NCBI RefSeq assembly: GCF_009740395.1
Contig: NZ_WOXT01000001.1
Location: 864,464-928,463 of the forward strand
DNA from: Noviluteimonas gilva
Lineage (GTDB): Bacteria; Pseudomonadota; Gammaproteobacteria; Xanthomonadales; Xanthomonadaceae
DNA: 64,000 bases
Reading direction: 5' to 3'
Part shown: positions 97-14,479 of the stretch, piece by piece
Position numbering within the stretch: the first letter of the stretch is position 1
Layout: the number at the start of each line of letters is the position of its first letter
Made by a program: the position numbers and the translations under genes
Notes under the pieces: generated by a model
What the model saw: only the letters and a program-made list of their open reading frames with translations
Databases searched by the model: none
What the model was told of the DNA's origin: nothing

Positions 97-1440
97 ATGC
101 ATAAGCAGAAACGAATGTTAGACAGCAGTGAGCATGACGTCGATGAAGACGGCAGCTACCTAGGTCAGACCATTGCCGAGATCATCCGGCGTGACTCGCG
201 GCATGAACTTGCGACAACGCTCCTGTGTGAGCAAACGCCTCTGGCGCAGGTGTTTGGCTACAACACCGACGACGAGCACTTGCTGAACTTCATGCCGAAA
301 CTGCGGCGGCTTTACACCTGGATCATGGCGGGAGATAACCCGCCAGTCGAACCCGTGTTCGATGGTTGGGCTAACCGGCCCGGGTACAAGCTCACCAGGC
401 TGGGCAGGCAGGCTCTAGATGCGTGCAATTACTACGCCTCCCAGGAGGAGGACGGGCGCAATTGGCAAGAAGCGTATTCCCACCACCGGTTCCATCCGAT
501 CGTCGCGGTAATGCTGCGCGCGGTGATGCGCTGGGGGCTGACAATCACTCGCTGGTCGAACCCAGAGCACGCAATGCTTGACGGTGGGCGGGACGCAGAG
601 GCCGTAGAGAAGCTACGCCAGTTGGTGGCATTCGTCCGGCGCACGTGCCGTTCGCAGGCTTTTCAGAACCTCCTGCACGACCATGAGCGCAAAGCGGAAG
701 ACAACTTCCGGAGTGGTTGCGACTATCTGTCTGCGCTGTTCGAGCGTCACTCGCGCTTGCTTATTCTGCGCATTGACCTGTACTTCCGTCCCGATGCCAA
801 AGGGTGGGGCTATAGCAAAGCGGCGGATAGGGCCGTCTCGAACTACCTCCGCGGGTTGCGCATGTGTCGCATCGTACCCGGCTATCGCGGCTTCCTCATC
901 AAGCGTGAGAACGGCATCAGCCGCGGGATGCACTACCACCTGATGGTCGTCCTGGACGGGCATATGCATCGCAGCGCCTATTACCTGACACGGGTTATGG
1001 GGGAGGCATGGATCAAGCGGGTGGGGGCGGACAAGGGCAGCTACTTCAACTGCTACGCAAACAGGAACCGGTACTGCTACAACGGCTTGGGTCTGGTACA
1101 CGTCAGCGATACGGAGAAGCTGCTGGGTCTCCGAATCGCGCTCTGGTACATGAGTAAGCAGGATTCCGAATTGAAGGTGGACGAAGCGAAGGTCAAGAAC
1201 TTCTGGCGTGGCCTGATGCCGGGGGAGGCCGATCGCCGGGGCGCGACCCGCAAGGGCGGGGACGGCATGCCGCTGGTGCGGCGCCTGCTGGGCGGGGCGC
1301 GTAGCAAGTACCCACTGGGCTTCGAGCCACCGAAAGGGAGCGTCTCCCCCCGGCGCCGGCAACCGAGCTGCGCCAGGATCAATCGGATGTCGCAGGGATC
1401 GGGACAGGCTGTCCCTACCCTGTCAGCTCACGCAGAATAG
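97..1440 (+). CDS. Inovirus Gp2 / YagK-YfjJ family replication-initiator-like protein
   Basis: The 447-residue protein resembles the inovirus Gp2 / YagK-YfjJ C-terminal family, found in filamentous phages, phage-like islands and small integrated elements and thought to act in element replication. The family-like core is at about residues 215-375. It includes a His-x-His pair, H279-Y-H281, in a hydrophobic strand (MHYHLMVV) like the metal-binding HUH motif of rolling-circle initiators, followed by conserved Trp/Tyr-rich stretches. The N-terminal 200 residues are not recognised and the Arg-rich tail looks disordered. It sits 70 bp upstream of the defence cluster on the same strand. Family assignment comes from remembered motifs; the replication role is inference. 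It marks this end of the window as mobile DNA. Confidence 0.75.
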   Translation: MHKQKRMLDSSEHDVDEDGSYLGQTIAEIIRRDSRHELATTLLCEQTPLAQVFGYNTDDEHLLNFMPKLRRLYTWIMAGDNPPVEPVFDGWANRPGYKLTRLGRQALDACNYYASQEEDGRNWQEAYSHHRFHPIVAVMLRAVMRWGLTITRWSNPEHAMLDGGRDAEAVEKLRQLVAFVRRTCRSQAFQNLLHDHERKAEDNFRSGCDYLSALFERHSRLLILRIDLYFRPDAKGWGYSKAADRAVSNYLRGLRMCRIVPGYRGFLIKRENGISRGMHYHLMVVLDGHMHRSAYYLTRVMGEAWIKRVGADKGSYFNCYANRNRYCYNGLGLVHVSDTEKLLGLRIALWYMSKQDSELKVDEAKVKNFWRGLMPGEADRRGATRKGGDGMPLVRRLLGGARSKYPLGFEPPKGSVSPRRRQPSCARINRMSQGSGQAVPTLSAHAE

Positions 1441-1510: not shown

Positions 1511-4390
1511 ATGCCCCATACCCTGCTAACCCCCTACCAAAGCCAGTACGTAGCATGGCTGCTGACTCGCAAGGCCCCGGGCGACACTGTCGAGTCCCTG
1601 GCGTCCACGCTGGTGGACTCGCAGGTCGACCTCAACCCCCATCAGGTGGATGCCGCACTGTTCGCCTGTCGCAACCCCCTGTCGCGGGGCGTGCTCCTCG
1701 CTGACGAGGTCGGTCTGGGCAAGACCATCGAAGCAGGCTTGGTCATCTCACAACGCTGGGCCGAGCGGCGGCGCAGGATCCTGATCGTCGTACCGGCCAA
1801 CCTGCGCAAGCAGTGGCACCAGGAATTGCAGGACAAGTTCGGCCTGCAGGGCCTGATCCTGGAAGCTAAAAGTTACAACGCCATCCGCAAGCAGGGACGG
1901 ATTCCCTTCCAGACGATTACCGGGCCGGTGATCTGCTCCTACCAGTTCGCCAAGTCCAAGTCCAAGGACGTCAAGGACATCGCCTGGGACCTGGTTGTGC
2001 TAGACGAAGCGCACCGCCTGCGAAACGTCTACAAGAAGGGAAACGTCATCGCTGCGACCTTGAAGGACGCGTTCGATCACGTTCATTCGAAGGTGCTGCT
2101 GACGGCGACGCCGCTGCAGAATTCGCTGCTGGAGCTCTATGGCCTCGTCAGCATCATCGATGACCGCGTCTTCGGCGACCTGGACAGCTTCCGAACCCAG
2201 TACACCGGAACCGGTAGGGAACAGGGCTTTGGCGCATTGCGTGAGCGCCTGTCGTCCATCTGCAAGCGCACCCTGCGCAAGCAGGTGCAGGCCTACGTCT
2301 CCTACACGGCGCGCAAGGCCATCGTGCAGGAGTTCACGCCGTCGGCAGAAGAGCAGGAGCTGAGAAGGCTCGTTGCCGAGTACCTGCGCAGGCCTAATCT
2401 TCAGGCGTTGCCCCAAAGCCAGCGCCAGCTGATCTCGCTGGTTCTGTGGAAACTGTTGGCTTCCAGCACGCATGCCATCGCGGGCGCATTGGCAACGATG
2501 AGTAATCGCCTGCAGGGCGTACTGGACGAGGCCCCCGTAGTCGACCTGACTGAAGCACTGGACGAGGACTACGAGGCGCTCGACGAGCTGGCCGATGAGG
2601 GCGGTGACGAGGATGCGGCCGGCGAATCCGAGAAGCCCCTGGCCCTGTCCCAGGAAGAGCGGGACGCGCTTTCTTCGGAGATCGACGAACTTCGCCACTT
2701 CAAGAATCTGGCGACCAACATTCGCGAGAACGCCAAGGGCAAAGCGCTGTTGACCGCGCTAGATCGGGCCTTCTCCGAACTGGACCGGCTGGGGGCGGAG
2801 AAGAAGGCCATCATCTTCACCGAATCCAAGCGGACCCAGGAATACCTGCTCGGGTTGCTGGCCGATACGCCCTACGGCGACGGCATCGTCCTGTTCAACG
2901 GCACCAACAATGATGCGCGGGCGCAGGCCATCTACAAGGAGTGGTTGAAGCGCCACGAAGGCACTGACCGCATTTCAGGATCCAAGACCGCCGACACCCG
3001 CGCTGCCCTGGTCGAGCATTTCAAGGAGCGTGGCACGATCATGATCGCCACCGAGGCAGGCGCGGAAGGCATCAATCTGCAGTTCTGCTCGCTAGCCATC
3101 AATTACGACCTGCCTTGGAACCCGCAACGTATCGAGCAACGCATCGGTCGCTGCCACCGCTACGGACAGAAGTTCGACGTGGTGGTGGTCAACTTTGTCG
3201 ATCGCAGCAACGAGGCCGACCGCCGCGTATACGAGCTGCTAGAGCAGAAGTTCCAACTATTCGACGGCGTGTTCGGTGCCAGCGACGAGGTGCTGGGTGC
3301 CATCGGCTCGGGCGTGGATTTCGAACGCCGAATTGCCGACATCTACCAGAACTGCCGGGATACGAACGAGATCAGGGCGAGCTTCGAGCAATTGCAGCTC
3401 GACCTTTCCAGCGAGATCAGCGAGGCGATGGTCAAGACGCGTCAGGCGCTGCTGGAAAACTTCGACGAGCAGGTGCAGGAGAAACTACGCGTCAGTGCCG
3501 AGGACAGCAAGAGCGCCCGTAGTCGCTACGAGCGGATGCTGATGGACCTGACGCGTGCTGAGCTTGGCGACCTGGCCAGCTTCGACGATGAAGGGTTCAG
3601 CCTGCATCGCATCCCCGATGGTCTTGCGCCTGAAAGCGTCAGTCCGGGGCGTTACGAGCTGCCACGACGTACCGGGGAGGCGCATCTATATCGCATTGGC
3701 CATCCGCTGGCGGTGTTGCTCGCGGAACAGGCCAAGGCTCGAAAGCTGGATGGCGCGAAGCTTGTTTTCGATTATGCAGCTCACGGCCAGAAGATCAGTA
3801 CGGTGGAGACCTATCGGGGCAAGGCGGGCTGGCTAACGGTCAAGCTGATCGAGGTCAAATCACTGAGCGAAAGCGAGCAGCATCTGATGGTGGCAGCAAG
3901 CACTGCCGATGGCGCGGTTCTGGAAGAAGACGACCCGGTCAAGCTACTCCGCATGCCTGCCTCGCAGACGCAAGGCGGAATCTCTGCTCCGGAAAGTGCG
4001 TTGTTAGCCGATGTCGAGACTCGAAAGACCGAGCTTCTGCGAGAAATCAATCAGCGCAACCTTGGCTATTTCGAGCAGGAGGTCCAAAAGCTGGATGCCT
4101 GGGCGGACGATCTCAAGCTCGGCCTGGAGCAGGAGATCAAGGAGATCGACCGCGAAATCAAGGATGTGCGCCGCACCGCCGCAACCTCACCCACGCTTGA
4201 AGAAAAGCTGGCGCACCAGAAACATCAGCGCGAACTGGAAGCCAAGCGCAGCAAGTTGCGTCGTGAACTATTTGCGCGCCAGGACGAAGTGGAGGAACAG
4301 CGCAATGGGCTAATCAGCCAACTGGAAGAACAACTCCAGCAGCAAGTTGAGGAGCGCACGCTGTTTACAGTTGAGTGGGAACTGATCTAA
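1511..4390 (+). CDS. SNF2/HepA-like superfamily 2 helicase of a defence system
   Basis: This 959-residue protein is an SNF2/RapA(HepA)-type DNA translocase. The first RecA-like lobe has Walker A (ADEVGLGKT, residues 64-72), the DEAH box at 165-168 and an LLTATP motif III. The second lobe carries motif VI in the form QRIGRCHRYGQ. An acidic insertion (Glu/Asp-rich, about residues 355-380) separates the lobes. The C-terminal 150 residues are a charged coiled coil. Helicases of this type occur in DISARM, Hma-like and type III-like defence loci, where they are thought to move along incoming DNA. It is the first gene of the cluster, with the 58-residue gene 9 bp downstream. The fold is certain; a defence role is inferred from its neighbours. 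Confidence 0.88.
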   Translation: MPHTLLTPYQSQYVAWLLTRKAPGDTVESLASTLVDSQVDLNPHQVDAALFACRNPLSRGVLLADEVGLGKTIEAGLVISQRWAERRRRILIVVPANLRKQWHQELQDKFGLQGLILEAKSYNAIRKQGRIPFQTITGPVICSYQFAKSKSKDVKDIAWDLVVLDEAHRLRNVYKKGNVIAATLKDAFDHVHSKVLLTATPLQNSLLELYGLVSIIDDRVFGDLDSFRTQYTGTGREQGFGALRERLSSICKRTLRKQVQAYVSYTARKAIVQEFTPSAEEQELRRLVAEYLRRPNLQALPQSQRQLISLVLWKLLASSTHAIAGALATMSNRLQGVLDEAPVVDLTEALDEDYEALDELADEGGDEDAAGESEKPLALSQEERDALSSEIDELRHFKNLATNIRENAKGKALLTALDRAFSELDRLGAEKKAIIFTESKRTQEYLLGLLADTPYGDGIVLFNGTNNDARAQAIYKEWLKRHEGTDRISGSKTADTRAALVEHFKERGTIMIATEAGAEGINLQFCSLAINYDLPWNPQRIEQRIGRCHRYGQKFDVVVVNFVDRSNEADRRVYELLEQKFQLFDGVFGASDEVLGAIGSGVDFERRIADIYQNCRDTNEIRASFEQLQLDLSSEISEAMVKTRQALLENFDEQVQEKLRVSAEDSKSARSRYERMLMDLTRAELGDLASFDDEGFSLHRIPDGLAPESVSPGRYELPRRTGEAHLYRIGHPLAVLLAEQAKARKLDGAKLVFDYAAHGQKISTVETYRGKAGWLTVKLIEVKSLSESEQHLMVAASTADGAVLEEDDPVKLLRMPASQTQGGISAPESALLADVETRKTELLREINQRNLGYFEQEVQKLDAWADDLKLGLEQEIKEIDREIKDVRRTAATSPTLEEKLAHQKHQRELEAKRSKLRRELFARQDEVEEQRNGLISQLEEQLQQQVEERTLFTVEWELI

Positions 4391-4399
4391 GGGAGATGT

Positions 4400-4576
4400 A
4401 TGGGGGCGCCATCAGAAGATGTAGTCAAGGAAGTTGTCCGGGTACTGACAGAGGAAAACTTGTTGTTGCCGAATGATGGCGAAAAGCTGAAGTCCAAGAT
4501 TGCAACTGGAACCATAAAGGCGGAGGACTGGCTTCTCGCTGCCCAGAAGGCGGTCGACAAGGAGGCCGACCAGTGA
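4400..4576 (+). CDS. Small 58-residue protein coupled to the SMC-like ATPase
   Basis: This short reading frame begins with ATG at 4400, preceded by the ribosome-binding sequence GGGAG at 4391-4395. It encodes 58 mostly charged, probably helical residues starting MGAPSEDVVKEVV. Its stop codon overlaps the GTG start of the next gene (GTGA), a mark of translational coupling. I do not recognise a family. The position, just ahead of a gene for a possible toxic nuclease-ATPase, would suit a small partner, activator or antidote, but that is inference. It is probably real because it exactly fills the gap between two cluster genes with a good Shine-Dalgarno. Confidence 0.6.
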   Translation: MGAPSEDVVKEVVRVLTEENLLLPNDGEKLKSKIATGTIKAEDWLLAAQKAVDKEADQ

Positions 4577-6894
4577 CCGCTCCTGCAATCGTCAGCTTGT
4601 CCATTGAGAACCTTCGGGGCTCAGTGACTCCTTTTACCCTGGCTTTTGAGAAGAACAAGAAACTTACGATCGTCTACGGTGAGAACGGAACGGGAAAATC
4701 CACCATTTCCGATGCGCTCGACCTGCTCGGGAACGAAAAGGTTGGCTCGTTAGAAAACAGAGGCGTGGGCGCTGCGACGCGGCCATACTGGCCCTCTGTT
4801 GGTAAAGCACATGCCGATGTCAAGGTAGCGCTCACGACGCTGGCAGGCACATGCACCCTATCGCTCGGCAAGATGGCTGCGGTTGTCGATAACCCGTCCC
4901 TGAAGCCGCAGGTGGCCGTGTTGCGGCGCAGTCAGATACTGAACTTGATCGCCGCGCAACCGGCTGATCGCTACAAGGCAATTAGTCGATTTGTTGATGT
5001 CTCAGGAGTGGAAGCGTCCGAGAGCACTCTGCGCAAGCTAATCAACGACAAAAACAAAGATTTCGATAACGCGACGGCGCGCGTGGGTGCCAATCGGACT
5101 TCCATCGAGAACTTCTGGGAACAGGCGGGAAAGGCTCCGCCTGATGCGTTTTCATGGGCAAAGTCCGAAGTACAGAAAGATCAAAAGGAGCTTGATCAAA
5201 AGAAGGCTGCAATTGACGAGTTGGTCTCCCGCTGGGACAAGGTCATCCCACATCAGAATAGGCTTATCGAACTTAGCGGCCAATTAAAGACGGCTGAAGC
5301 TGCTTTGGAAAAGGCCGAAGTCGACCTGGAGGCGATCACGAGCGATGCGGCTGATGGCTATGTGGAAGTTCTGGAGATTCTGAAGGCCGCGCAAAAGCAC
5401 TTCACCACGCATCCCCATCCATCGGTATGCCCGCTGTGCGAAAGCAACGAAAAGGCTGGAGAGCTCGTTACTGAAGTCAATCGGCGGATCGAGGCCCAAG
5501 GTTTACATTCCAAGCTGGATGCCGCCAAAAAGGCCGTAGCAGCCCAGCGCGGCGTTGTCCAAGCGGCGACGCAACGGCTCGAAGATTTCAAGAAGGATGC
5601 CGCAAATGACTTTGCAGCATTGGAATCCTATTGTACGGATGGAAGCAGGCTGGCCGAGCTGGAACTTCCCGCCTTTCCTGTCCCGAGCCAGCCAGAGCAA
5701 TGGGCAGATTGGATAGACGGAAACAAGGATAAGCGTGACGAATGGAAGCGGACCTCTGATGCATGCGTGGACGCCAAGATGTTCGTTGAAACCCTGCGTC
5801 TTTCCTTGAAGAATCTTGAAGAGAGTGAGGCGGCGGCCAAAGAGCTGGAGGTGGTTCTCCCGCGTCTTCGAGAAATTCTGAAAATCGTAGAACGCGAACG
5901 CAAGAAGTACACCGACTCGGTGCTGGATGCCATATCCACTCGGGTTGGTGAGCTATACGAGGCAATTCATCCAGGCGAAGGGTTGAACAAGATTGTTCTG
6001 GCGCTGGATGCAGCCAAGCGCGGCTCTTTGGACATCGCAACGGAGTTTGCAGGCAGGCAAGACAGTCCGCCGCAGGCGTACCTAAGCGATTCCCATCTGG
6101 ATACGTTGGGCCTGTGTGTTTTCCTGGCACTGGCCGAGCACGAAGTCCCAGAACAAAAGATCCTGGTTCTGGATGACGTGCTGGGTAGCGTTGATGAACC
6201 CCACGTGGAGAGGGTGATTGGCCTGATTTACGAAGTTAGCCAGAAATTCCGGCATGCCCTCATTACGACGCACTACCGCCCCTGGCGGGAGAAGTTCCGT
6301 TGGGGAATCCTGAAGCCTGACCAGGTTTGTCAGTTCGTCGAGCTAAGGGGCTGGTCTCTTAGCGACGGAATGGCGTTGAGTGGATCGATACCGGAGATCG
6401 CGCGGCTAAAGGTTCTGTTGGATGACCAGAATCCAGATATTCAAGCTATCACTGGAAAGGCGGGGGTCATTCTGGAGGCTTTGCTGGACTTCATCACTCT
6501 CAAGTACGGGTGCGCAGTGCCTAGGCGAGCGGGTAATGCTTACGTACTTAGCGATCTGCTCGACGCGGTGAACGGGAAGTTGATGGCCGCCTTGACCGGT
6601 GAGTTGGTGGTCGTGGACGACACCGGTTCTCAGGCCGTCACACCTGTGCCGATCAAGCCAATTTTAGAAGAGATCAAGACAATCGCCCAAGCAAGAAATG
6701 TGTTGGGAGCGCACTTCAATGCGCTAGCGTTTGATCTGTATCCGAGCGAAGGAATTAGGTTCGCGCGGCTAGTCGAGCAACTCTGTGACGCATTGATTTG
6801 TCCGGATCACGGCTGGCCTACCAAAGACACGGGCAGCTATTGGAAGAACGGCGGCGACACGCGCCGCCTTCACCCATTGAAGAAGCCGAGTTAA
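4573..6894 (+). CDS. SMC/Rad50-like zinc-hook AAA ATPase with possible C-terminal HEPN nuclease domain (RloC-like)
   Basis: The 773-residue protein has a split ABC-type ATPase. Walker A (GENGTGKST) is at residues 36-44. A long coiled coil is broken by a zinc hook, CPLC, at 286-289. A signature-like segment (SDSHLDTLG, about 505) is followed by Walker B, LVLDDVLGSVD, near 530-541. About 130 residues after the ATPase form a helical tail ending in R708-NVLGA-H714, an R-N-x4-H pattern like the catalytic R-x4-6-H of HEPN ribonucleases. Zinc-hook ATPase plus RNA-cutting tail recalls the anticodon nuclease RloC, which also lies near restriction systems. The start is GTG, chosen for its GTGA overlap with the gene before. 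ATPase fold and hook are seen directly; the nuclease call is inference. Confidence 0.82.
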   Translation: MTAPAIVSLSIENLRGSVTPFTLAFEKNKKLTIVYGENGTGKSTISDALDLLGNEKVGSLENRGVGAATRPYWPSVGKAHADVKVALTTLAGTCTLSLGKMAAVVDNPSLKPQVAVLRRSQILNLIAAQPADRYKAISRFVDVSGVEASESTLRKLINDKNKDFDNATARVGANRTSIENFWEQAGKAPPDAFSWAKSEVQKDQKELDQKKAAIDELVSRWDKVIPHQNRLIELSGQLKTAEAALEKAEVDLEAITSDAADGYVEVLEILKAAQKHFTTHPHPSVCPLCESNEKAGELVTEVNRRIEAQGLHSKLDAAKKAVAAQRGVVQAATQRLEDFKKDAANDFAALESYCTDGSRLAELELPAFPVPSQPEQWADWIDGNKDKRDEWKRTSDACVDAKMFVETLRLSLKNLEESEAAAKELEVVLPRLREILKIVERERKKYTDSVLDAISTRVGELYEAIHPGEGLNKIVLALDAAKRGSLDIATEFAGRQDSPPQAYLSDSHLDTLGLCVFLALAEHEVPEQKILVLDDVLGSVDEPHVERVIGLIYEVSQKFRHALITTHYRPWREKFRWGILKPDQVCQFVELRGWSLSDGMALSGSIPEIARLKVLLDDQNPDIQAITGKAGVILEALLDFITLKYGCAVPRRAGNAYVLSDLLDAVNGKLMAALTGELVVVDDTGSQAVTPVPIKPILEEIKTIAQARNVLGAHFNALAFDLYPSEGIRFARLVEQLCDALICPDHGWPTKDTGSYWKNGGDTRRLHPLKKPS

Positions 6895-6900
6895 TCGCAC

Positions 6901-8697
6901 ATGGCAAAGCTAGAAGCTCACTACATGACGATTCTGAAGAAGGTTCTGGCTGAACGTTTCGTCCCGTTCTTGCCGCCACTCTTGGACACTAGCAAACCTG
7001 CCAGCGATCAGGAGGCCAAGCAACTATCTAGGGGCTTCAGCGCCTTTGTGCTTCACAAGCTACTCGGCATCTCTCCGCAAGATGCCGCAGCTTCGGTCGT
7101 AGATGACTTCAACGACAAGGGACTCGACGCAGTCCACTATGACGAGGGCTCGGAAACGCTGTATTTGCTGCAGACCAAGCTCAAGGAGTCAGAGCAGTTC
7201 AAGCAGGAGGACGCCCTTCCATTCTGCGAAGGAATCCGTCTCATGCTCAAGCAGGACTTTGCTGCTTTCAACGCCAACGTCCAAAGCCGCAAGGTTGAGA
7301 TCGAGGCGGCGCTAGATGCGTGTAGTCAAATCAAGCTCGTCGCCACGTATACGGGCGACGGTATCTCTCAGACCGCAAGCGATGCGCTGCAGTCGCTCCT
7401 TGACGATGAGAGTCTCGACGAGGAGCGCCTTGTAAAGCAGGTGACGCACTACACAGCCACTGAGGTTGCAAGGGACCTTTTGGCAGAGCAAGCCTATCAG
7501 CCCGTTCACACGGAAATCGGCCTTCAAAAGCATTCTAAGGTCGAGGAGCCGAGGGCAACGTACTACGGCATCGCTAGGCTTACCGATCTGGTGACGCTGC
7601 ACCTCGAAAAAGGCAGGGCGCTGTACGAACGCAACATCCGCTATTTCTTGGGCAGTCGCTCCGATGTTAACAAGGCCATAAAGAATACGTTGCGAGATGA
7701 CCCCGGGAGCTTTTTCTACCTCAATAATGGCGTGACCGCCGTTTGCGACAGTATTGAGGTAAAGGGAAACAACCCCAATAGTGGCTTTAGGAAGTTCAAG
7801 GTTCGCGGCCTGTCCATCATCAACGGTGCGCAGACTGTGGCCTCGGCGGCTGAGTTTGTGTCGCAAAACGCGAGCAGTGACATTAGCGACGCTAAGGTAA
7901 TGCTCACTCTCATCAAAGCTCCGACCGACAGCCAGTTCGGTAGACGTGTCACCAAAGCACGCAATCATCAAAACCCCGTCCAGACTGCAAACTTCGCGTC
8001 ATTGGACGAGAACCAAGAGCGCTTGCGGCAAGAGATCAGCTATCTTGGATACACGTATCACTACCGGCCGGAAGCCAGCGTCGCCGGAGCGAATTCAATT
8101 ACGTTGGACGAAGGCATTCGCGCATTGGCGCTACAGCAGAAGGATGCCCGCTATCCAGCCTGGATAAAGACCGAGTTCGGTCGCCTTTCCGATCCTGAAG
8201 GGGTTGAGTATCAGGCTCTGTTTCCGTCAACGCTGACCAGCTTTAGCCTGGTCAACAGCGTTTTGCTCTATCGGGTCATACGTGACCTTGTTGCGGACTA
8301 TGATGCGCGCGCCGCGGCAGGAAGCCAGGAACGACTGATTTACAGGCATGGGAACCATGTGATTGCGTCGGTTATGATGAAACGGCTGCGCAACCGCATC
8401 GCCAAAGCGGAGCTAGCTGATGGCGCTGCCATCAACGGATTGATTGGTCCATCCCTCGATCAGCTTCGTCAGGAGACGGCCAACTTGGGGGCTTCCCAGT
8501 TGGGGCTAAGTGGGCCGTTGTCCTTCTTCAGAAGCCAAGGAAATGTTGTTTCCTTCATGGCATCGCTGATGGAAACACATTATGGGTTGGTCGCCGATCC
8601 AACTGTGATTCATTTGCGCAGTGTCGCAAACGCAGCGGACGAATATCCGCGCAAGAGCTTGGTCAATTACCTTTCTGATCGCGCTCCTCAGATTTGA
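6901..8697 (+). CDS. AIPR family abortive phage infection protein
   Basis: This 598-residue protein matches the AIPR (abortive infection phage resistance) family. The core begins near residue 221 with a YYGIARLTDLV-like segment, then ERNIRYFLG, a stretch ending FFYLNNGVTAVCD, and INGAQTVASA, which are typical AIPR blocks. AIPR proteins occur in phage-resistance loci, often beside restriction-modification genes, and their biochemical activity is not settled. The N-terminal 200 residues include a DKGLDAVHYD / LLQTKLKES stretch resembling a restriction-endonuclease-like D...Q-x-K core, so a nuclease domain is possible. The gene starts 6 bp after the ATPase and its stop overlaps the region of the Mod ribosome-binding site. 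Confidence 0.85.
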   Translation: MAKLEAHYMTILKKVLAERFVPFLPPLLDTSKPASDQEAKQLSRGFSAFVLHKLLGISPQDAAASVVDDFNDKGLDAVHYDEGSETLYLLQTKLKESEQFKQEDALPFCEGIRLMLKQDFAAFNANVQSRKVEIEAALDACSQIKLVATYTGDGISQTASDALQSLLDDESLDEERLVKQVTHYTATEVARDLLAEQAYQPVHTEIGLQKHSKVEEPRATYYGIARLTDLVTLHLEKGRALYERNIRYFLGSRSDVNKAIKNTLRDDPGSFFYLNNGVTAVCDSIEVKGNNPNSGFRKFKVRGLSIINGAQTVASAAEFVSQNASSDISDAKVMLTLIKAPTDSQFGRRVTKARNHQNPVQTANFASLDENQERLRQEISYLGYTYHYRPEASVAGANSITLDEGIRALALQQKDARYPAWIKTEFGRLSDPEGVEYQALFPSTLTSFSLVNSVLLYRVIRDLVADYDARAAAGSQERLIYRHGNHVIASVMMKRLRNRIAKAELADGAAINGLIGPSLDQLRQETANLGASQLGLSGPLSFFRSQGNVVSFMASLMETHYGLVADPTVIHLRSVANAADEYPRKSLVNYLSDRAPQI

Positions 8698-8708
8698 GAG
8701 CAATACGC

Positions 8709-10511
8709 ATGAGCAAGCAAAAACTAGAGCTGACCTGGATTGGGAAAGAGAAGCGGCCCAGGCTGGAGCCACGCATCCTGCTCGAAGATCCAGAAAGGTC
8801 CTACCACGCCAAGCATCGCGTGACGGACAGCGACGTCTTCGACAACAAGCTGATCTTTGGTGACAACCTGCTTGCGCTGAAGGCGCTAGAGCATGAGTTC
8901 GCTGGCAAGGTGAAATGTGTCTACATCGACCCACCTTTTAACACGCAGCAGGCTTTTGACCACTACGACGACGGATACGAACATTCCATATGGCTCGGAC
9001 TCATTCGTGATCGCGTCGAATCAATTCGCCGATTGCTGTCAGACGACGGGACGCTTTTCGTTCACATCGATGACAATGAGCTTGGCTACTTGATCGTGCT
9101 GCTTGACGAAATATTTGGCCGTCGTAACCGCATCGGAGTAATAACCTTTAAGCAGAGTTCCGCTTCTGGTCCGAAGGCCATCAATCCTGGGCTCGTCACG
9201 ACGAACAACTACATTTTGTACTACGCAAAGAACAAGGACGCATGGTCTCCGAATCGCGTCTTCGTTCCGGGGCCGCGTGATGATAGGTACTCCAAGTACA
9301 TCGAGAACTACGATCATGATTTCCGAGACTGGCATCTTACCGGTCTGCGCGAGGCGTTTCTTCGGAGCAACAGGCTGCATGCATGGGACGAGGCCAAGGC
9401 GAAGTTCGCTGATAAGCTCGAAGCCAAGCTCACCGAATTCGTAGTTGCCAATGCGCACCGAGTTGTTCGCACTGCACGAGTGGCGCCCAAAGATGTTAAT
9501 GAGTCAGCACGGGAGGCCCTTAGTCAGTCAACCGCTGATCGAACAAAGGTCTATCGGTCGAAACGGGAAGATAGAGATGATTACTACTTCCTTGGCGGTG
9601 AGCAGTTGGTTTTCTACAAGGCTAAGACTCGGATAATTGACGGGGAAGCAACGACCGCATCGCCACTGACAAATCTTTGGGATGATTTGCTGTCGAACAA
9701 CTTGCATAACGAGGGCGGCGTTTCATTTCCTAACGGGAAAAAGCCTGAAGGATTGATCAAGAGATGCCTCGAGCTCGCGACGAAACCAGGGGATATCGTT
9801 CTTGATTCGTTTGCGGGCTCCGGTACTACCGGTGCTGTTGCGCACAAGATGGGGCGCCGCTGGATCATGTTGGAGTTGGGCGAACATTGCGATACCCACA
9901 TCATCCCTCGACTTCGGAAGGTCATCGATGGAGAAGATTTGTCTGGAGTAACAAAGGCAGTTGGCTGGCCGGGAGGCGGGGGTTTCCGCTACTACAGGCT
10001 CGCGCCTAGCCTCATCGTGGACGACCGCTGGGGCAATCCAGTCATTAACCCGGAGTACAACTCCGCGATGCTGACCGAGGCGCTGACTAAGCTGGAGGGC
10101 TTTTCCTACGCGCCATCGGAGGCGATCTGGTGGCGGCACGGTCATTCCAGTGAGCGGGACTTTATCTACGTCACTACCCAGAATCTATCCGCAGACCAGT
10201 TGCAGGCACTGTCCGAGGAGGTAGGCTCAGACAAGAGCCTGCTTGTTTGTTGCTCAGCCTTCCATGCTGTTACGGCGGCTCAGGCTGCAACGCGCTGGCC
10301 GAACCTGACGCTGAAGAAGATCCCGAAGATGGTGCTGGCCCGCTGCGAGTGGGGCCACGACGACTACAGCCTCAACGTGACAAACCTGCCGGTGGCGACA
10401 CCTGATCCTGTCGTACCTACGGTTCCGGCTACTGGTAGCAGGAGCCGCAGGACGCCTGCAAATGAGGACCAGGGCGACATCTTTGGCCAGAACGTCGGGG
10501 AGGATGCATGA
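8709..10511 (+). CDS. Site-specific DNA methyltransferase, type III Mod-like (beta class)
   Basis: This 600-residue adenine-type (N6) or N4-cytosine methyltransferase carries the catalytic motif DPPF at residues 74-77 and the S-adenosylmethionine-binding motif FAGSGTTG at 368-375. Motif IV before motif I is the beta-class order of type III Mod subunits. The roughly 270 residues between them would hold the target-recognition domain. The start is taken as ATG 8709 rather than an upstream TTG that overlaps the AIPR stop. The stop overlaps the ATG of the next gene (ATGA), and that gene encodes a Res-like helicase. Expected role: modification of host DNA so that the system spares it. The recognition sequence cannot be read from the gene. 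Confidence 0.92.
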   Translation: MSKQKLELTWIGKEKRPRLEPRILLEDPERSYHAKHRVTDSDVFDNKLIFGDNLLALKALEHEFAGKVKCVYIDPPFNTQQAFDHYDDGYEHSIWLGLIRDRVESIRRLLSDDGTLFVHIDDNELGYLIVLLDEIFGRRNRIGVITFKQSSASGPKAINPGLVTTNNYILYYAKNKDAWSPNRVFVPGPRDDRYSKYIENYDHDFRDWHLTGLREAFLRSNRLHAWDEAKAKFADKLEAKLTEFVVANAHRVVRTARVAPKDVNESAREALSQSTADRTKVYRSKREDRDDYYFLGGEQLVFYKAKTRIIDGEATTASPLTNLWDDLLSNNLHNEGGVSFPNGKKPEGLIKRCLELATKPGDIVLDSFAGSGTTGAVAHKMGRRWIMLELGEHCDTHIIPRLRKVIDGEDLSGVTKAVGWPGGGGFRYYRLAPSLIVDDRWGNPVINPEYNSAMLTEALTKLEGFSYAPSEAIWWRHGHSSERDFIYVTTQNLSADQLQALSEEVGSDKSLLVCCSAFHAVTAAQAATRWPNLTLKKIPKMVLARCEWGHDDYSLNVTNLPVATPDPVVPTVPATGSRSRRTPANEDQGDIFGQNVGEDA

Positions 10512-13243
10512 TGAATCCCCGCGTTCTGCATGCCATCACTGGCCGCCTGTCCCTTCGCCCGCCGCAAGAGGAATCCCTCAAGCGGCTGGCTCGAGCGATA
10601 GAGATCTCGCCAGACCTCCTGCAGCATGAGCGAGAGGTCTTAGCCATTTTATCCACGCTGAAGGCCGAGTTCAGCACGCTGGAAGATTTTGAACGCGAAT
10701 TCCCCTCGCTGTGTTTCGCGCTGGCTACGGGAGTGGGCAAGACACGTCTGATGGGTGCGTTCATCGCCTATATGCACTTGGCGCACGGCATCAATAACTT
10801 CTTCGTGCTCGCCCCGAACCTGACCATTTACAACAAGCTGATCGCGGACTTCACGCGTAACACGCCCAAGTACGTGTTCAAGGGGATCGCCGAGTTTGCG
10901 CAGCAGCCACCCCTGATCATCACCGGTGACAACTATGACCAGACCGGCGCTGCGGTGGAGGACCAGCCTAGGGGTTTTGCTCACGACGTTCGCATCAACA
11001 TCTTCAACATCTCCAAGATCAATTCTGAAGTGCGCGGCGGCAAAGAGCCGCGCATTAAGCGGATGCGGGAAGTGCTGGGCGACAGTTATTTCAACCACCT
11101 GGCGAACCTGTCCGACCTCGTGTTGCTGATGGACGAATCGCACCGCTACCGTGCCCAGGCCGGTATGCGGGCAATCAACGAGCTGAAACCGTTGTTCGGA
11201 CTAGAGGTCACGGCGACGCCGTTCGTCGAATCCAGTAGGGGGCCGGTGCCGTTCAAAAACGTGGTAATGGACTATCCGCTGGCGCAGGCGATGGAGGACG
11301 GCTTCGTCAAGGAGCCCGCCGCCGTCACCCAGCGCAACTTCGACGCCAAGGCCCACACGTCGGAGGAGATCGAAAAAACCAAGCTGGAGGACGGAGTTCG
11401 TCTTCACGAGACAACAAAGGTGGAGCTGGTGACCTACGCTCGTGAGAGCGGCGTCAAAGCGGTCAAGCCCTTCATGCTCGTCATTGCGCGCGATACCACG
11501 CACGCAGCGCAACTACTGGATCTGCTGGAATCCGACGCGTTCTACGAGGGGCGATACAGGGGCAAGGTGATCCAGGTCGATTCCAGCCGTACCGGTGCGG
11601 AAGAGGAAGAGATGATCACCCGCCTGCTGGCCGTGGAGAGCGTCGACGAGCCAACCGAGATTGTCATCCACGTCAACATGCTCAAGGAAGGCTGGGACGT
11701 AACTAACCTGTACACGATCGTTCCGCTGCGCGCTGCTAATGCACGTACACTGATCGAGCAGAGCATCGGCCGCGGCCTGCGCCTGCCCTATGGCAAGCGC
11801 ACAGGCGTGGCGGCGGTAGATCGGCTGAACATCGTCGCCCACGACAAGTTCCAGGAGATCGTCGATGAGGCCAACCGCGGCGACTCCCCGATTCGCCTGA
11901 AGCAGGTCATCCTCGATGCGCCGAGCGCAGACGACAAGAAGGTCAGCGTACAGATTGAGTCGGGAGCGGCTGCCCGCATGGGGCTTGCGTCCAATCCCGC
12001 GATCGGTCCGGCGATAGGTGTCATTGGTACCGACGCCGCGTCTGCGCCAGTGCCCGTGTTCAACACCGAAGTGGAGAGGCAGGTTGCTCGCGCGGTCATG
12101 GAGGTAATCGGTACGTACGAGGTCAAGCCCGACCTGGTGCCTACAAGCGACACATTGCTCAACGCGGGCATCCAGAAGGACATACAGGAGAAGGTCGCCG
12201 AACTGCTGAAGCCGAAGCAGGGCGAGCTGCTGAAGGGCGTGGACGATCAAGCGCTGACTATCGATCTGCCCGCTTTGGTTGCGAAGGCCACCGAAGTGGT
12301 GGTTCAGCAGACCATCGACATCCCACGTATCGCGGTAGTGCCGAAGGGCGAGGTCACGACCGGCTTCCGACCATTCACGCTGGATGTCAGCCGGCTTCAC
12401 CTGCAGCCAGGCGAACGAGAGATCGTCGGACAAAACCTGCGTACCAATGAACAATTCACCTTGGCCGCCGAGATCGGCTTGAAGGAGCAGCGGCCGGAGG
12501 ACTACATCGTCCACGCCCTGATCGACTTCGATGATGTCGACTACTTCACACATGCTGACCTGCTGTACGAGCTCGCGAGCCAGATGGTCCAGCATTTGAA
12601 TGGCTACCTTTCGGACACCGAAGTCGTCAGCGTGCTGGATCGGGACCGACGACTGATCGCCAAGGAGATCCACGCGCAGATGATGTTGCACTTCTTTGAG
12701 GATGCGGCTGAGTTCGAGGTGCAAGTCAGTCGTGGGTTCACCGAACTCAAGCCATGCAACTACACGGTGACAGCGGGGCAGCCGCCGCGCCACTATCGCG
12801 AGACCGTCGACGATGTAGGTCGCATCAAGCAGATGCTGTTCGGTGGTTTCAAGAAATGTCTCTATCAGCTGCAGAAGTTCGACTCGGACACGGAACGTCG
12901 CTTCGCGGTCATCCTGGAAAGGGACGCCATCAAATGGTTCAAGCCTGCGAAGGGGCAGTTCCAGATCTACTACAAGTTAGGCACAGAGCAACCGGAGTAT
13001 GTGCCCGACTTCGTTGTCGAGACCGCTGCGGCAATCCTCATGGTTGAAACCAAGAGGCGGGACGACTTGCAGACTCCCGAGGTGAAGGCTAAGGCCGAGG
13101 CGGCGGCACGTTGGTGCAAGCATGCCTCCGACTATGCCGCGACCGTCGGCGGAAAGCCTTGGAAGTATCTGCTGATCCCGCACGATGAGGTTGCCGAGAA
13201 CAAGACGTTGGCCGACTACATGCGGTTCGAGCAGAAGGCCTAG
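10508..13243 (+). CDS. Type III restriction Res-like DEAD/DEAH helicase-endonuclease
   Basis: The 911-residue protein has the layout of type III Res. Walker A (ATGVGKT) is at residues 73-79 and a DESH box at 209-212. Helicase motif VI reads SIGRGLRLPYG. Near the C terminus, D834 and E847-x-K849 (PDF, then VETKRR) give the PD-(D/E)xK nuclease core. Together with the upstream Mod it forms what looks like a complete restriction-modification pair, translationally coupled by an ATGA overlap. No frameshift or missing catalytic residue is seen. Length suits the family (about 900-1000 residues). In a composite system its nuclease might be steered by the SNF2 helicase or the zinc-hook ATPase, but that is not visible in the sequence. 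Confidence 0.92.
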   Translation: MMNPRVLHAITGRLSLRPPQEESLKRLARAIEISPDLLQHEREVLAILSTLKAEFSTLEDFEREFPSLCFALATGVGKTRLMGAFIAYMHLAHGINNFFVLAPNLTIYNKLIADFTRNTPKYVFKGIAEFAQQPPLIITGDNYDQTGAAVEDQPRGFAHDVRINIFNISKINSEVRGGKEPRIKRMREVLGDSYFNHLANLSDLVLLMDESHRYRAQAGMRAINELKPLFGLEVTATPFVESSRGPVPFKNVVMDYPLAQAMEDGFVKEPAAVTQRNFDAKAHTSEEIEKTKLEDGVRLHETTKVELVTYARESGVKAVKPFMLVIARDTTHAAQLLDLLESDAFYEGRYRGKVIQVDSSRTGAEEEEMITRLLAVESVDEPTEIVIHVNMLKEGWDVTNLYTIVPLRAANARTLIEQSIGRGLRLPYGKRTGVAAVDRLNIVAHDKFQEIVDEANRGDSPIRLKQVILDAPSADDKKVSVQIESGAAARMGLASNPAIGPAIGVIGTDAASAPVPVFNTEVERQVARAVMEVIGTYEVKPDLVPTSDTLLNAGIQKDIQEKVAELLKPKQGELLKGVDDQALTIDLPALVAKATEVVVQQTIDIPRIAVVPKGEVTTGFRPFTLDVSRLHLQPGEREIVGQNLRTNEQFTLAAEIGLKEQRPEDYIVHALIDFDDVDYFTHADLLYELASQMVQHLNGYLSDTEVVSVLDRDRRLIAKEIHAQMMLHFFEDAAEFEVQVSRGFTELKPCNYTVTAGQPPRHYRETVDDVGRIKQMLFGGFKKCLYQLQKFDSDTERRFAVILERDAIKWFKPAKGQFQIYYKLGTEQPEYVPDFVVETAAAILMVETKRRDDLQTPEVKAKAEAAARWCKHASDYAATVGGKPWKYLLIPHDEVAENKTLADYMRFEQKA

Positions 13244-13261: not shown

Positions 13262-14479
13262 GTGTCGGGAAGAATGTTGCCCGTGTCGGTTGCTGATTGG
13301 TCCCAAGTAATCCTCTCAGCCGAGAAGCCGCTCGACTTTCTGCTAAGAAAGGGTGTTGCCGTGTATATCAAGGTTCGGCGAGATAGCGAGATCGTGTATC
13401 GCCATTACAAGGTACCTTTAGCTCAATGGGAGCGGAGCACGCTCCCCTTCCCAGCATTCCAGAACACGAGAGCTCCAATGTCGCCTGGAGATCTGGCGCC
13501 GGCGGAACTTTCTGAGTCTCATCCTCTGTTTGGTCTGGAGAAGGTCGACTCTCTTCCCCGTGTGGGGTTCCTTGAGGAGGCGGCTTTTCTGCGCCTGGAC
13601 GATGGGGCGCTCGCAGAGATTGCCGTGTCTCGGTCCTGCTTTGTCTCAAGCTTTTCGGGTGAAGGGTTTTTGACTCCACGCCCTTGCGAGGTCACCGATC
13701 AAACGCTCGGTGGATACTCCATCAAGAAGCCGCTGCGAATCGAGGCTGCTGACTTGGCGAGATTCGAGTTCGATCGCGCCATCATCGTCGACAAGAGAAG
13801 ACTAGATTGGGTGTTGGCAAGGATCTCCCCAATGGAGGCGCCTCCCCCTGAGCAATTCGCTATCCAGATCGAGGTGGGTGAGAGCGACTTGTATGTGACT
13901 TCAGTCGACTTCGAGGCGCTGAGACACGAAGAACGGCTGGACCGCCAGCTGATCGAATATCCCTTCTTGCACAAAGAGCAAATGCCAGGAATCTATTGGA
14001 TGTTCCAGGCTGCGTACGCGCATAATCACCTAGAGTCGGTGCCTAGAGATAAAGTTGGTGAGTGGCTGAAGGAAAATGCGCCGAAAGGCACCTACCGCTA
14101 CAAGAGTATCCGAACGGCAACGAAGTTTGTCTGGCCTGAAGTCGATAGAGCTAGTGGCGGCAAAGGTCGCGGAGAGTTCGTCCTTGAGGATCTCGATGAC
14201 TGGACGGTTGCAGATGATTACAAGTTTCCCTTTATCAGCAAAGGACTCTCGTTCGTTCTTGCCATTGCAGACTGGTGGGTAAAAGTCCTACGCAAAAATC
14301 CGGATACAGCCGCGGTGACTCTTGCCGAGAAGCTCGTGGAGAACAAATTCGCTGGCTTGGAAGTAGGCGACCTCGTGTATCTCATCAGCGGGGCACAGAT
14401 CACGGAGGAAGAGGCTGCGTCCTTTGGGTCGTATCTGAAGGAGATGGGCAAAAGAGTGCGGCCTATTATTAGTAAATAG
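13262..14479 (+). CDS. Unrecognised protein, last gene of the defence cluster
   Basis: I do not recognise this 405-residue protein. The start is GTG at 13262, behind GGGAG (13251-13255); ATG at 13274 is an alternative. It has no signal peptide or membrane segment. It looks like a soluble, mixed alpha/beta protein, with Trp/Tyr-rich segments in the centre (QMPGIYWMFQ) and an ENKFAGLEVGDLVYLISG block near the end. It begins 18 bp after the Res gene, so it is probably co-transcribed with the restriction genes. A decayed copy of its last part lies 260 bp downstream. A partner, specificity or immunity function in the same system is possible but unproven. Confidence 0.7.
   Translation: MSGRMLPVSVADWSQVILSAEKPLDFLLRKGVAVYIKVRRDSEIVYRHYKVPLAQWERSTLPFPAFQNTRAPMSPGDLAPAELSESHPLFGLEKVDSLPRVGFLEEAAFLRLDDGALAEIAVSRSCFVSSFSGEGFLTPRPCEVTDQTLGGYSIKKPLRIEAADLARFEFDRAIIVDKRRLDWVLARISPMEAPPPEQFAIQIEVGESDLYVTSVDFEALRHEERLDRQLIEYPFLHKEQMPGIYWMFQAAYAHNHLESVPRDKVGEWLKENAPKGTYRYKSIRTATKFVWPEVDRASGGKGRGEFVLEDLDDWTVADDYKFPFISKGLSFVLAIADWWVKVLRKNPDTAAVTLAEKLVENKFAGLEVGDLVYLISGAQITEEEAASFGSYLKEMGKRVRPIISK

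Follow-up and report, generated by a model that had tools for sequence, protein, structure and literature searches.

What does a Rad50-like ATPase do when its gene lies between the helicase and the methyltransferase of a restriction operon? The question is raised by a stretch of 64,000 nucleotides (nt) from Noviluteimonas gilva (contig NZ_WOXT01000001.1, positions 864,464 to 928,463 of the forward strand), hereafter called the window, in which such an ATPase and a small protein are encoded inside a type III-like restriction-modification (RM) operon. We are inclined to suggest, as a somewhat probable reading, that the small protein and the ATPase form a two-gene guard module placed in an accessory slot of an SNF2-helicase/type III-like RM operon. 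The exchangeable slot with its two-gene module is well supported as anatomy; the guard function is only proposed. The evidence comprises the operon, a conserved partner gene, intact ATPase motifs, an invariant candidate active site, a tail model that leans to HEPN and slot contents that change. The genes concerned are the following (aa, amino acids):

1511 to 4390, plus strand: SNF2-family helicase, 959 aa, distantly DrmD-like (Pfam SNF2-rel_dom, E 2.8e-33), the upstream border of the slot
4400 to 4576, plus strand: small partner gene, 58 aa, conserved, overlapping the start of the ATPase gene by 4 nt
4573 to 6894, plus strand: Rad50/SMC-like ABC ATPase with a zinc-hook coiled coil and a HEPN-like C-terminal tail, 773 aa
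6901 to 8697, plus strand: AIPR-family gene (Pfam AIPR, E 7.5e-38, 131 bits)
8694 to 10511, plus strand: type III-like adenine methyltransferase (Mod), 605 aa (Pfam N6_N4_Mtase, E 1.3e-41; PADLOC MTase_III, 655 bits), the downstream border of the slot
10508 to 13243, plus strand: type III-like restriction subunit (Res), 911 aa (PADLOC REase_III, 694 bits; Pfam ResIII, E 6.8e-24)

A first-pass annotation, made from the letters of this DNA, had described the ATPase as placed inside a restriction cluster, and the operon of SNF2 helicase, Mod and Res bears this out. Mod and Res stand side by side with their genes overlapping by 4 nt, as is expected of a type III RM system. The helicase, which is related to DrmD, scored 661 bits against NCBIfam DISARM_DrmD_b, below the cut-off of 950, and no further DISARM gene was among the matches listed for its neighbours when the other six proteins were scanned; the DISARM set, which we take here to be DrmD with DrmA and DrmB, was not recovered. 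AIPR was described in 2008 as commonly encoded by RM operons (PMC2292703).

Related operons were gathered with Res, the helicase and the ATPase as baits, which gave 45 rows whose helicase showed at least 39% identity over at least 580 aligned residues, with a methylase match downstream; Res was counted when it was matched anywhere on the stretch. One locus was removed as lying on the same contig as another (L193, with L109), five as having no Res match and a weak methylase (L112, L113, L115, L118 and L214) and two as ending before Res (L091 and L114). Among the 37 operons that remain are three (L051, L110 and L117) whose methylase matches are partial (28-34%). That a relative of the helicase borders the slot in all 37 follows from the way in which the census was built.

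The slot is empty in 12 of the 37 operons, where the helicase and methylase genes adjoin with a gap of at most 129 nt (L087, labelled empty_RloCdown, is counted here), and filled in 25. AIPR is found in eight and the window-type ATPase in five, the latter count not being a frequency since, the window apart, all seven restriction-linked loci with this ATPase came from ATPase or tail searches (L051 was found in this way and also, as L107, by the helicase scan). Further occupants are Abi_2, SIR2_2, PIN, Schlafen AlbA_2 (two operons), PLD-type proteins (two, that of L110 below the Pfam cut-off), an AAA_21 protein with DUF4276, RhuM, a ThsA macro protein and, in L111, an AAA_21 protein whose PHP match is weak and also below the cut-off. 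Five slot proteins are without a family name or, as in L188 and L192, lay outside the family scan. Since the same slot holds known abortive-infection-type effectors, the suggestion of the first-pass annotation that the ATPase is a last line of defence is plausible.

Do the contents of the slot follow the operon that carries them? On a quick tree of 39 helicases, in which double occupants received one label (ATPase before AIPR before others), the 15 occupant states require 18 changes, against a floor of 14 and 21-27 in 300 label shuffles, so that the occupants track the host tree somewhat, yet turn over often. The presence of the ATPase alone requires 4 changes (4 to 7 in the shuffles, mean 6.6). 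One fully supported group of four unites the ATPase-bearing operons of the window, L018 and L027 with that of L072, where SIR2 is found instead, and L044 (Abi_2) pairs with L082 (AIPR). Moreover, host and guest trees disagree. On the helicase tree L029 joins L081 and L106, both with AIPR only (support 95), and these join L091 and L095 (100), whereas the ATPase tree joins L091 and L094 to the window set (100/100) and L029 to the Hymenobacter and Fibrella copies (99/97); L095 and L094, with the helicase and the ATPase, are two contigs of one genome.

Wherever helicase and methylase are both visible beside an ATPase of the close clade defined below, the ATPase lies between them on the same strand (6/6: the window, L018, L027, L029, L051 and L091, all but the window having been found with the ATPase as bait, so that this is not a frequency). 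L091 shows helicase, ATPase and Mod up to the contig end. In L028 the ATPase, Mod and Res are present and the helicase was not seen; another open reading frame (ORF) lies upstream of the small gene and the ATPase (L028:85-789), which has no match to the helicase, which we take to be AbiEii-like and which is perhaps another slot occupant. A Res-driven scan at E 1e-100 found Res in 20 of 398 genomes, several on short contigs, and the ATPase beside it only in the genome of the window. The plasmid records examined were 10 of 25 from one search and 8 of 26 from another.

Could the small gene and the ATPase instead be a free-standing defence or toxin-antitoxin module that landed in an RM operon and is functionally unlinked to it? 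Plasmids of Hymenobacter and Fibrella do carry homologues that are not part of such an operon, other relatives lie beside AbiE genes or another restriction gene, and Abi, PIN and SIR2 genes cluster in defence islands anyway. The constant same-strand placement between helicase and methylase, baited as it was, argues the other way, as do the short gaps in the window, where the helicase stop at 4390 is followed by the small gene at 4400 and the ATPase stop at 6894 by the AIPR start at 6901. We regard an unlinked module as decidedly unlikely.

The proposed guard module includes a small partner gene that the first-pass annotation overlooked. The 58-aa gene at 4400-4576 is preceded by a ribosome-binding-like site, AAGGGAG, and its product is identical to that of L018 in 29 of 58 residues, with 21, 14 and 37 changes on codon positions 1, 2 and 3; it thus carries a coding signature. 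A small ORF that overlaps the ATPase start, or ends at most 16 nt from it, was found in 24 of 25 loci, window included, the sole locus without one being that of a short Streptomyces protein. Within the close clade the small ORF is homologous in 13/13 loci, and W44 is invariant in the 12 that were aligned; the distant-clade ORFs have the same size and place with only loose likeness in sequence. Pfam, NCBIfam and PADLOC gave no match for the small proteins scanned; the gene is a candidate regulator. In L018 (9590-9820) and L027 (reverse complement 6879-7109) a conserved 76-aa ORF, presumably KTSC-like, lies between the helicase and the small gene.

The ATPase frame itself (4573-6894, plus strand) opens with GTG, and the frames that overlap it on the opposite strand are only shorter (180 and 103 aa). 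Its scores in Pfam (AAA_23, 40.3 bits with a cut-off of 27; AAA_15, 36.6 with a cut-off of 32.1) and its weak matches to SMC and Rad50 among PDB sequences place it among the Rad50/SMC/RecF-type ABC ATPases. Its main features are given here:

4678 to 4701, plus strand: Walker A, GENGTGKS, residues 36-43 (E37, N38, G39, G41 and K42 invariant, 10/10)
5428 to 5439, plus strand: zinc hook CPLC, residues 286-289, between two long helices
6085 to 6105, plus strand: ABC signature-like SDSHLDT, residues 505-511 (S505, S507, H508, L509 and T511 invariant, 10/10)
6160 to 6195, plus strand: Walker B and D-loop, residues 530-541, ILVLDDVLGSVD (L533, D534, D535, V536, S539 and D541 invariant, 10/10)
6370 to 6891, plus strand: HEPN-like tail, residues about 600-773, from a structure model of residues 590-773
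6475 to 6477, plus strand: invariant E635 (29/29 homologues of both clades), the Glu of the R-x3-E helix of distant relatives
6694 to 6720, plus strand: RNVLGAHFN, residues 708-716, candidate ribonuclease (RNase) active site (R708, N709 and H714 in 14/14 close-clade rows)

Across ten homologues the Walker A, the signature-like motif, the Walker B with its two aspartates, the D-loop and H567 vary little or not at all, and the ATPase therefore looks functional. In that alignment seven rows share 28-37% identity with the window protein and two share 72%. Both hook cysteines are kept in all 13 close-clade rows that span the hook, the short Streptomyces row being a gap there, and helices 204-279 and 311-355 flank the hook in a low-confidence full-length model. 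The best PADLOC match, Lamassu LmuB (82 bits), was set aside, the matched region being the ATPase and coiled coil with the tail not covered.

The tail was said by the first-pass annotation to hold RNVLGAH at residues 708-714, and this motif is indeed present in the translation, as is the CPLC hook it had named. The protein has four instances of the general pattern Rx4-6H, where 5000 composition shuffles give 2.3 on average; being near chance level, it was rejected as evidence in itself, and conservation is therefore the useful test. The stricter RN-x4-H occurs once, against 0.026 expected for the protein and 0.006 for residues 601-773 in composition shuffles. In a 30-row alignment, R708, N709, E635 and H714 are identical in all 14 rows of the close clade (the window, Methylomonas, genomes of the same class and phylum, four plasmid copies from Hymenobacter and one from Fibrella, a contig from IMG/VR and a short protein of Streptomyces that lacks the coiled coil), and H714 is kept in 29/29 homologues of both clades. 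The tails of the close clade are otherwise diverged, five far rows being 26-30% identical to that of the window. The HEPN definition of R-x4-6-H with a polar residue after the arginine (PMC3710099) thus appears as R708-N-x4-H714 throughout the close clade, as the annotation had asked of R708 and H714.

The RloC-like L189, misaligned at H714, was not counted in the motif table, which leaves out L026 (tail-less), L017 (a fragment of L031), L007 and L032 (ATPase part only), L098 (frame broken) and other weak ATPase-only matches; the tail piece of L098 reads RN-x4-H. A Streptomyces plasmid encodes a 573-aa homologue (L023:11086-12807) with RN-x4-H intact and without the coiled coil, the hook and the overlapping small gene.

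Is the tail a HEPN domain? The model of residues 590-773 has a mean predicted local distance difference test (pLDDT) of 60 and a predicted template modelling score (pTM) of 0.64, and is mostly helical with strands too, so that the helical tail of the first-pass annotation holds in the main. VIA-align 2, with which 998 of Foldseek's top chains were realigned, gives ranks 1-12 to HEPN-type structures (Z 6.5-7.7), followed by DrrA (5.6) and AbiV, a HEPN protein (5.2), the first unrelated row having 4.9. Ten of the twelve labels come from a title or paper and two, YutE and a Thermus protein, are of structures that we take to be HEPN-type. The tail is therefore likely to be a HEPN-type RNase domain, as far as a model of this quality can suggest. 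At its end the tail has a stretch in which relatives retain zinc-ribbon-like cysteines, some of which are missing from the window protein.

Several observations pull away from the HEPN assignment and from the guard module built on it. The tail model was made from only three sequences, and VIA-align 2 itself warns that Z below 8 (below 13 for helical bundles) can reflect a common arrangement. Foldseek alone gave a best E of 0.23 with no HEPN among the 50 rows listed, and its own matches, superoxide dismutases and the like, were discarded at that value or worse. The HEPN folds proposed by the annotation were likewise not recovered by profiles, neither in Pfam up to E 10 on four tails, where no relevant family appeared, nor with three tail profiles against PDB sequences. 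The HEPN pattern E-x3-[KR], typical of many families though not of all, reads E-x3-D at E635. In addition, the full-length ATPase model is poor (pLDDT 54.7, pTM 0.36), too poor for a fold search, and a Halomontanus plasmid encodes a homologue with a small upstream gene and without the HEPN-like tail (L026:6495-8468). Finally, the ATPase tree needs no more than one change between the states "in RM slot" and "elsewhere"; the stand-alone copies would thus be explained if the module had left the slot once, and this count gives no evidence of repeated insertion.

Some of these points would suit an ATPase that serves the restriction complex as a structural or translocating part, engaged in DNA looping or end holding, and whose tail, a HEPN-like or other helical domain, binds partners or nucleic acid without cutting RNA. 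The intact ATPase motifs and the tail-less L026 homologue agree with it, and a role as DNA-looping engines has been proposed for the MORC and paraMORC ATPases that other RM operons encode (PMC2292703). However, a part that is missing in 12 of 37 sister operons is not needed, the slot is otherwise often filled by toxin-like genes, homologues also occur outside RM operons, and the best conserved positions of the tail include residues of catalytic type. We consider such a part rather unlikely.

The first-pass annotation had called the protein RloC-type, and its build is indeed that of RloC, with a Rad50-like ATPase of intact motifs, a CxxC hook in the coiled coil and a C-terminal helical domain. 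In RloC the triad R-x3-E-x36-52-H is found and each of its three residues is needed (PMC2610378). The window protein lacks this triad, a glycine standing four residues before E635. Its match to AAA_13 is weak (33.8 bits under a cut-off of 36, best over residues 26-260, against 139 bits in the RloC-like L189) and its tail profile aligns to four RloC-like tails with an hhalign probability of 0.3% over 29 columns. Moreover, separate RloC-like genes occur beside the same Res family, since in L189 (2894-5206) and L087 (8493-10400) the gene that directly follows Res encodes a RloC/PrrC-like AAA_13 protein with a CPFC hook (in L087 the stretch ends inside the gene). True membership in RloC, with the excision of a wobble nucleotide from transfer RNA (tRNA), draws some support from distant relatives of the window protein that carry R-x3-E and a downstream histidine; on balance it was rejected and is highly improbable.

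These distant relatives (12 bacterial and three archaeal rows) match the tail profile of the close clade with 98.5% probability (E 3.6e-15) and keep E635 and H714 in 15/15. They have an arginine four residues before E635 in 15/15, where the close clade has glycine in 14/14, and a direct check found arginine at 4-8 residues before the histidine in 0/15. L030 and L269 have one three residues before it, and L267 has a lysine in column 708, which lies near gaps in the distant rows. The two clades thus show a complementary pattern, the candidate catalytic arginine lying either before the histidine (14/14 close) or in the R-x3-E helix (15/15 distant) and never in both. The RloC-like L276-L278 and L189 carry the R-x3-E...H triad; L276-L278 have, in addition, an arginine a short way ahead of the histidine, and both positions may thus be occupied in RloC itself. 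The RloC helix is set by hhalign, though weakly, on the same helix (0.3% for the close clade, 3.8% for the distant clade). We infer that the active-site arginine was relocated between the RloC position and the R-N-x4-H position.

How might the guard module work? The pair is best read by analogy with PrrC, as a sensor ATPase with an RNase tail and a small regulator or adaptor. PrrC is silenced by its type I RM enzyme and is released when a phage blocks restriction (PMC2610378, PMC3710099). We infer for the window an RNase activity, a target, a trigger and a partner role along these lines. The hook-and-coiled-coil ATPase would sense abnormal DNA or a disabled restriction complex, and ATP-driven movement of its heads would free the C-terminal HEPN-like tail. 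The freed tail would then cut cellular RNA by means of R708, N709, E635 and H714, and the infected cell would stop. The small protein, probably coupled in translation to the ATPase, would most likely hold it inactive or tie it to the host complex.

RloC and PrrC (PMC2610378, PMC3710099) share with the window protein an ABC ATPase followed by a C-terminal domain, which is HEPN-type in them and probably so in the window protein. A Rad50-like CxxC hook is present in RloC as well, and PrrC is likewise embedded in an RM locus, of type I. Unlike them, the window protein has RN-x4-H without R-x3-E...H and a tail that is not alignable by profile, its host is type III-like with an SNF2 helicase, and a small gene overlaps the ATPase start. 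A paper of 2013 (PMC3710099) described fusions of ABC ATPase and HEPN and also RM loci that encode HEPN proteins; among the fusions, the APECO1_4465 and ERFG_01251 types have an N-terminal ABC ATPase and a C-terminal HEPN domain, and the first is often found in mobile islands. A small partner or a type III RM slot is not mentioned for either in the available part of that paper, and the comparison is by description only. HepT/MntA toxins are the best structural neighbours of the tail model. The active motif of HepT is R-x4-H-x-Y (PMC7641770), and these toxins stand alone and are silenced by a nucleotidyltransferase, whereas the window has R-x5-H fused to an ATPase; none of the operon proteins scanned against Pfam matched a nucleotidyltransferase.

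BREX loci were described in 2026 as containing suicide effectors, and the back-up effectors of BREX and BREX-related systems (HEPN, PIN, Schlafen, TOPRIM/OLD and others) lie in or beside core defence operons (PMC12839542). The host system differs, yet in one BREX-5 locus (L268:2024-10667, Halorhabdus tiamatea pHTIA) a relative of the ATPase and the small gene upstream of it stand between pglX and pglZ; as a single case this was not taken as a rule. Neither "RloC" nor "zinc hook" occurs in the main text of PMC12839542, and the parts of PMC5608340 and PMC9122601 available add nothing on operons of the window type. In the literature searched, no paper was found that treats this family of operons and its slot, the small gene or the two layouts of the arginine, and a classification of ABC ATPases may name the clade. 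ATPase-HEPN fusions, RM-linked HEPN proteins and BREX suicide effectors are already known; the slot, the small gene and the arginine layouts are new here, and the proposed guard would be a variation on the PrrC/RloC idea. A wider proposal, which we hold tentatively, is that of a mobile guard without a match to a named defence family that plugs into unrelated RM systems (the type III-like one with SNF2 helicase and, in one case, BREX-5) as one of about eleven kinds of interchangeable cargo, its catalytic arginine having been relocated within a single protein family.

If the guard reading is true, a family of RM operons has a standard slot for swapped effectors. Its occupants would then be candidate guard toxins, of which several lack a family name, and one could ask directly whether blocking the restriction enzymes fires the cargo. 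The relocation of the arginine, if true, would tie the odd layout of RloC and PrrC to ordinary HEPN RNases.

A search of 50,697 phage records at E 1e-5 gave no match to the ATPase, and no tRNA gene was found within the window. In L072 (13452-14534), L073 (612-1679) and L075 (13426-14544) a YhcG-type PD-(D/E)XK nuclease, RhuM or Fic gene lies between Mod and Res, in what is a second place for cargo. The operon is also found on plasmids, in L044 from Salmonella, with IS256 in the slot and resistance genes further along, and in L047 from Aeromonas, where the methylase is interrupted by an insertion element. In the window, an ORF of 405 aa directly 3' of Res (13262-14479, plus strand) has no match in Pfam, NCBIfam or PADLOC. 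Upstream of the operon, an ORF of 447 aa (97-1440, plus strand) has a sub-threshold match to the YagK/YfjJ C-terminal family (21.4 bits against 25.8) and is possibly the trace of a mobile element beside the operon.

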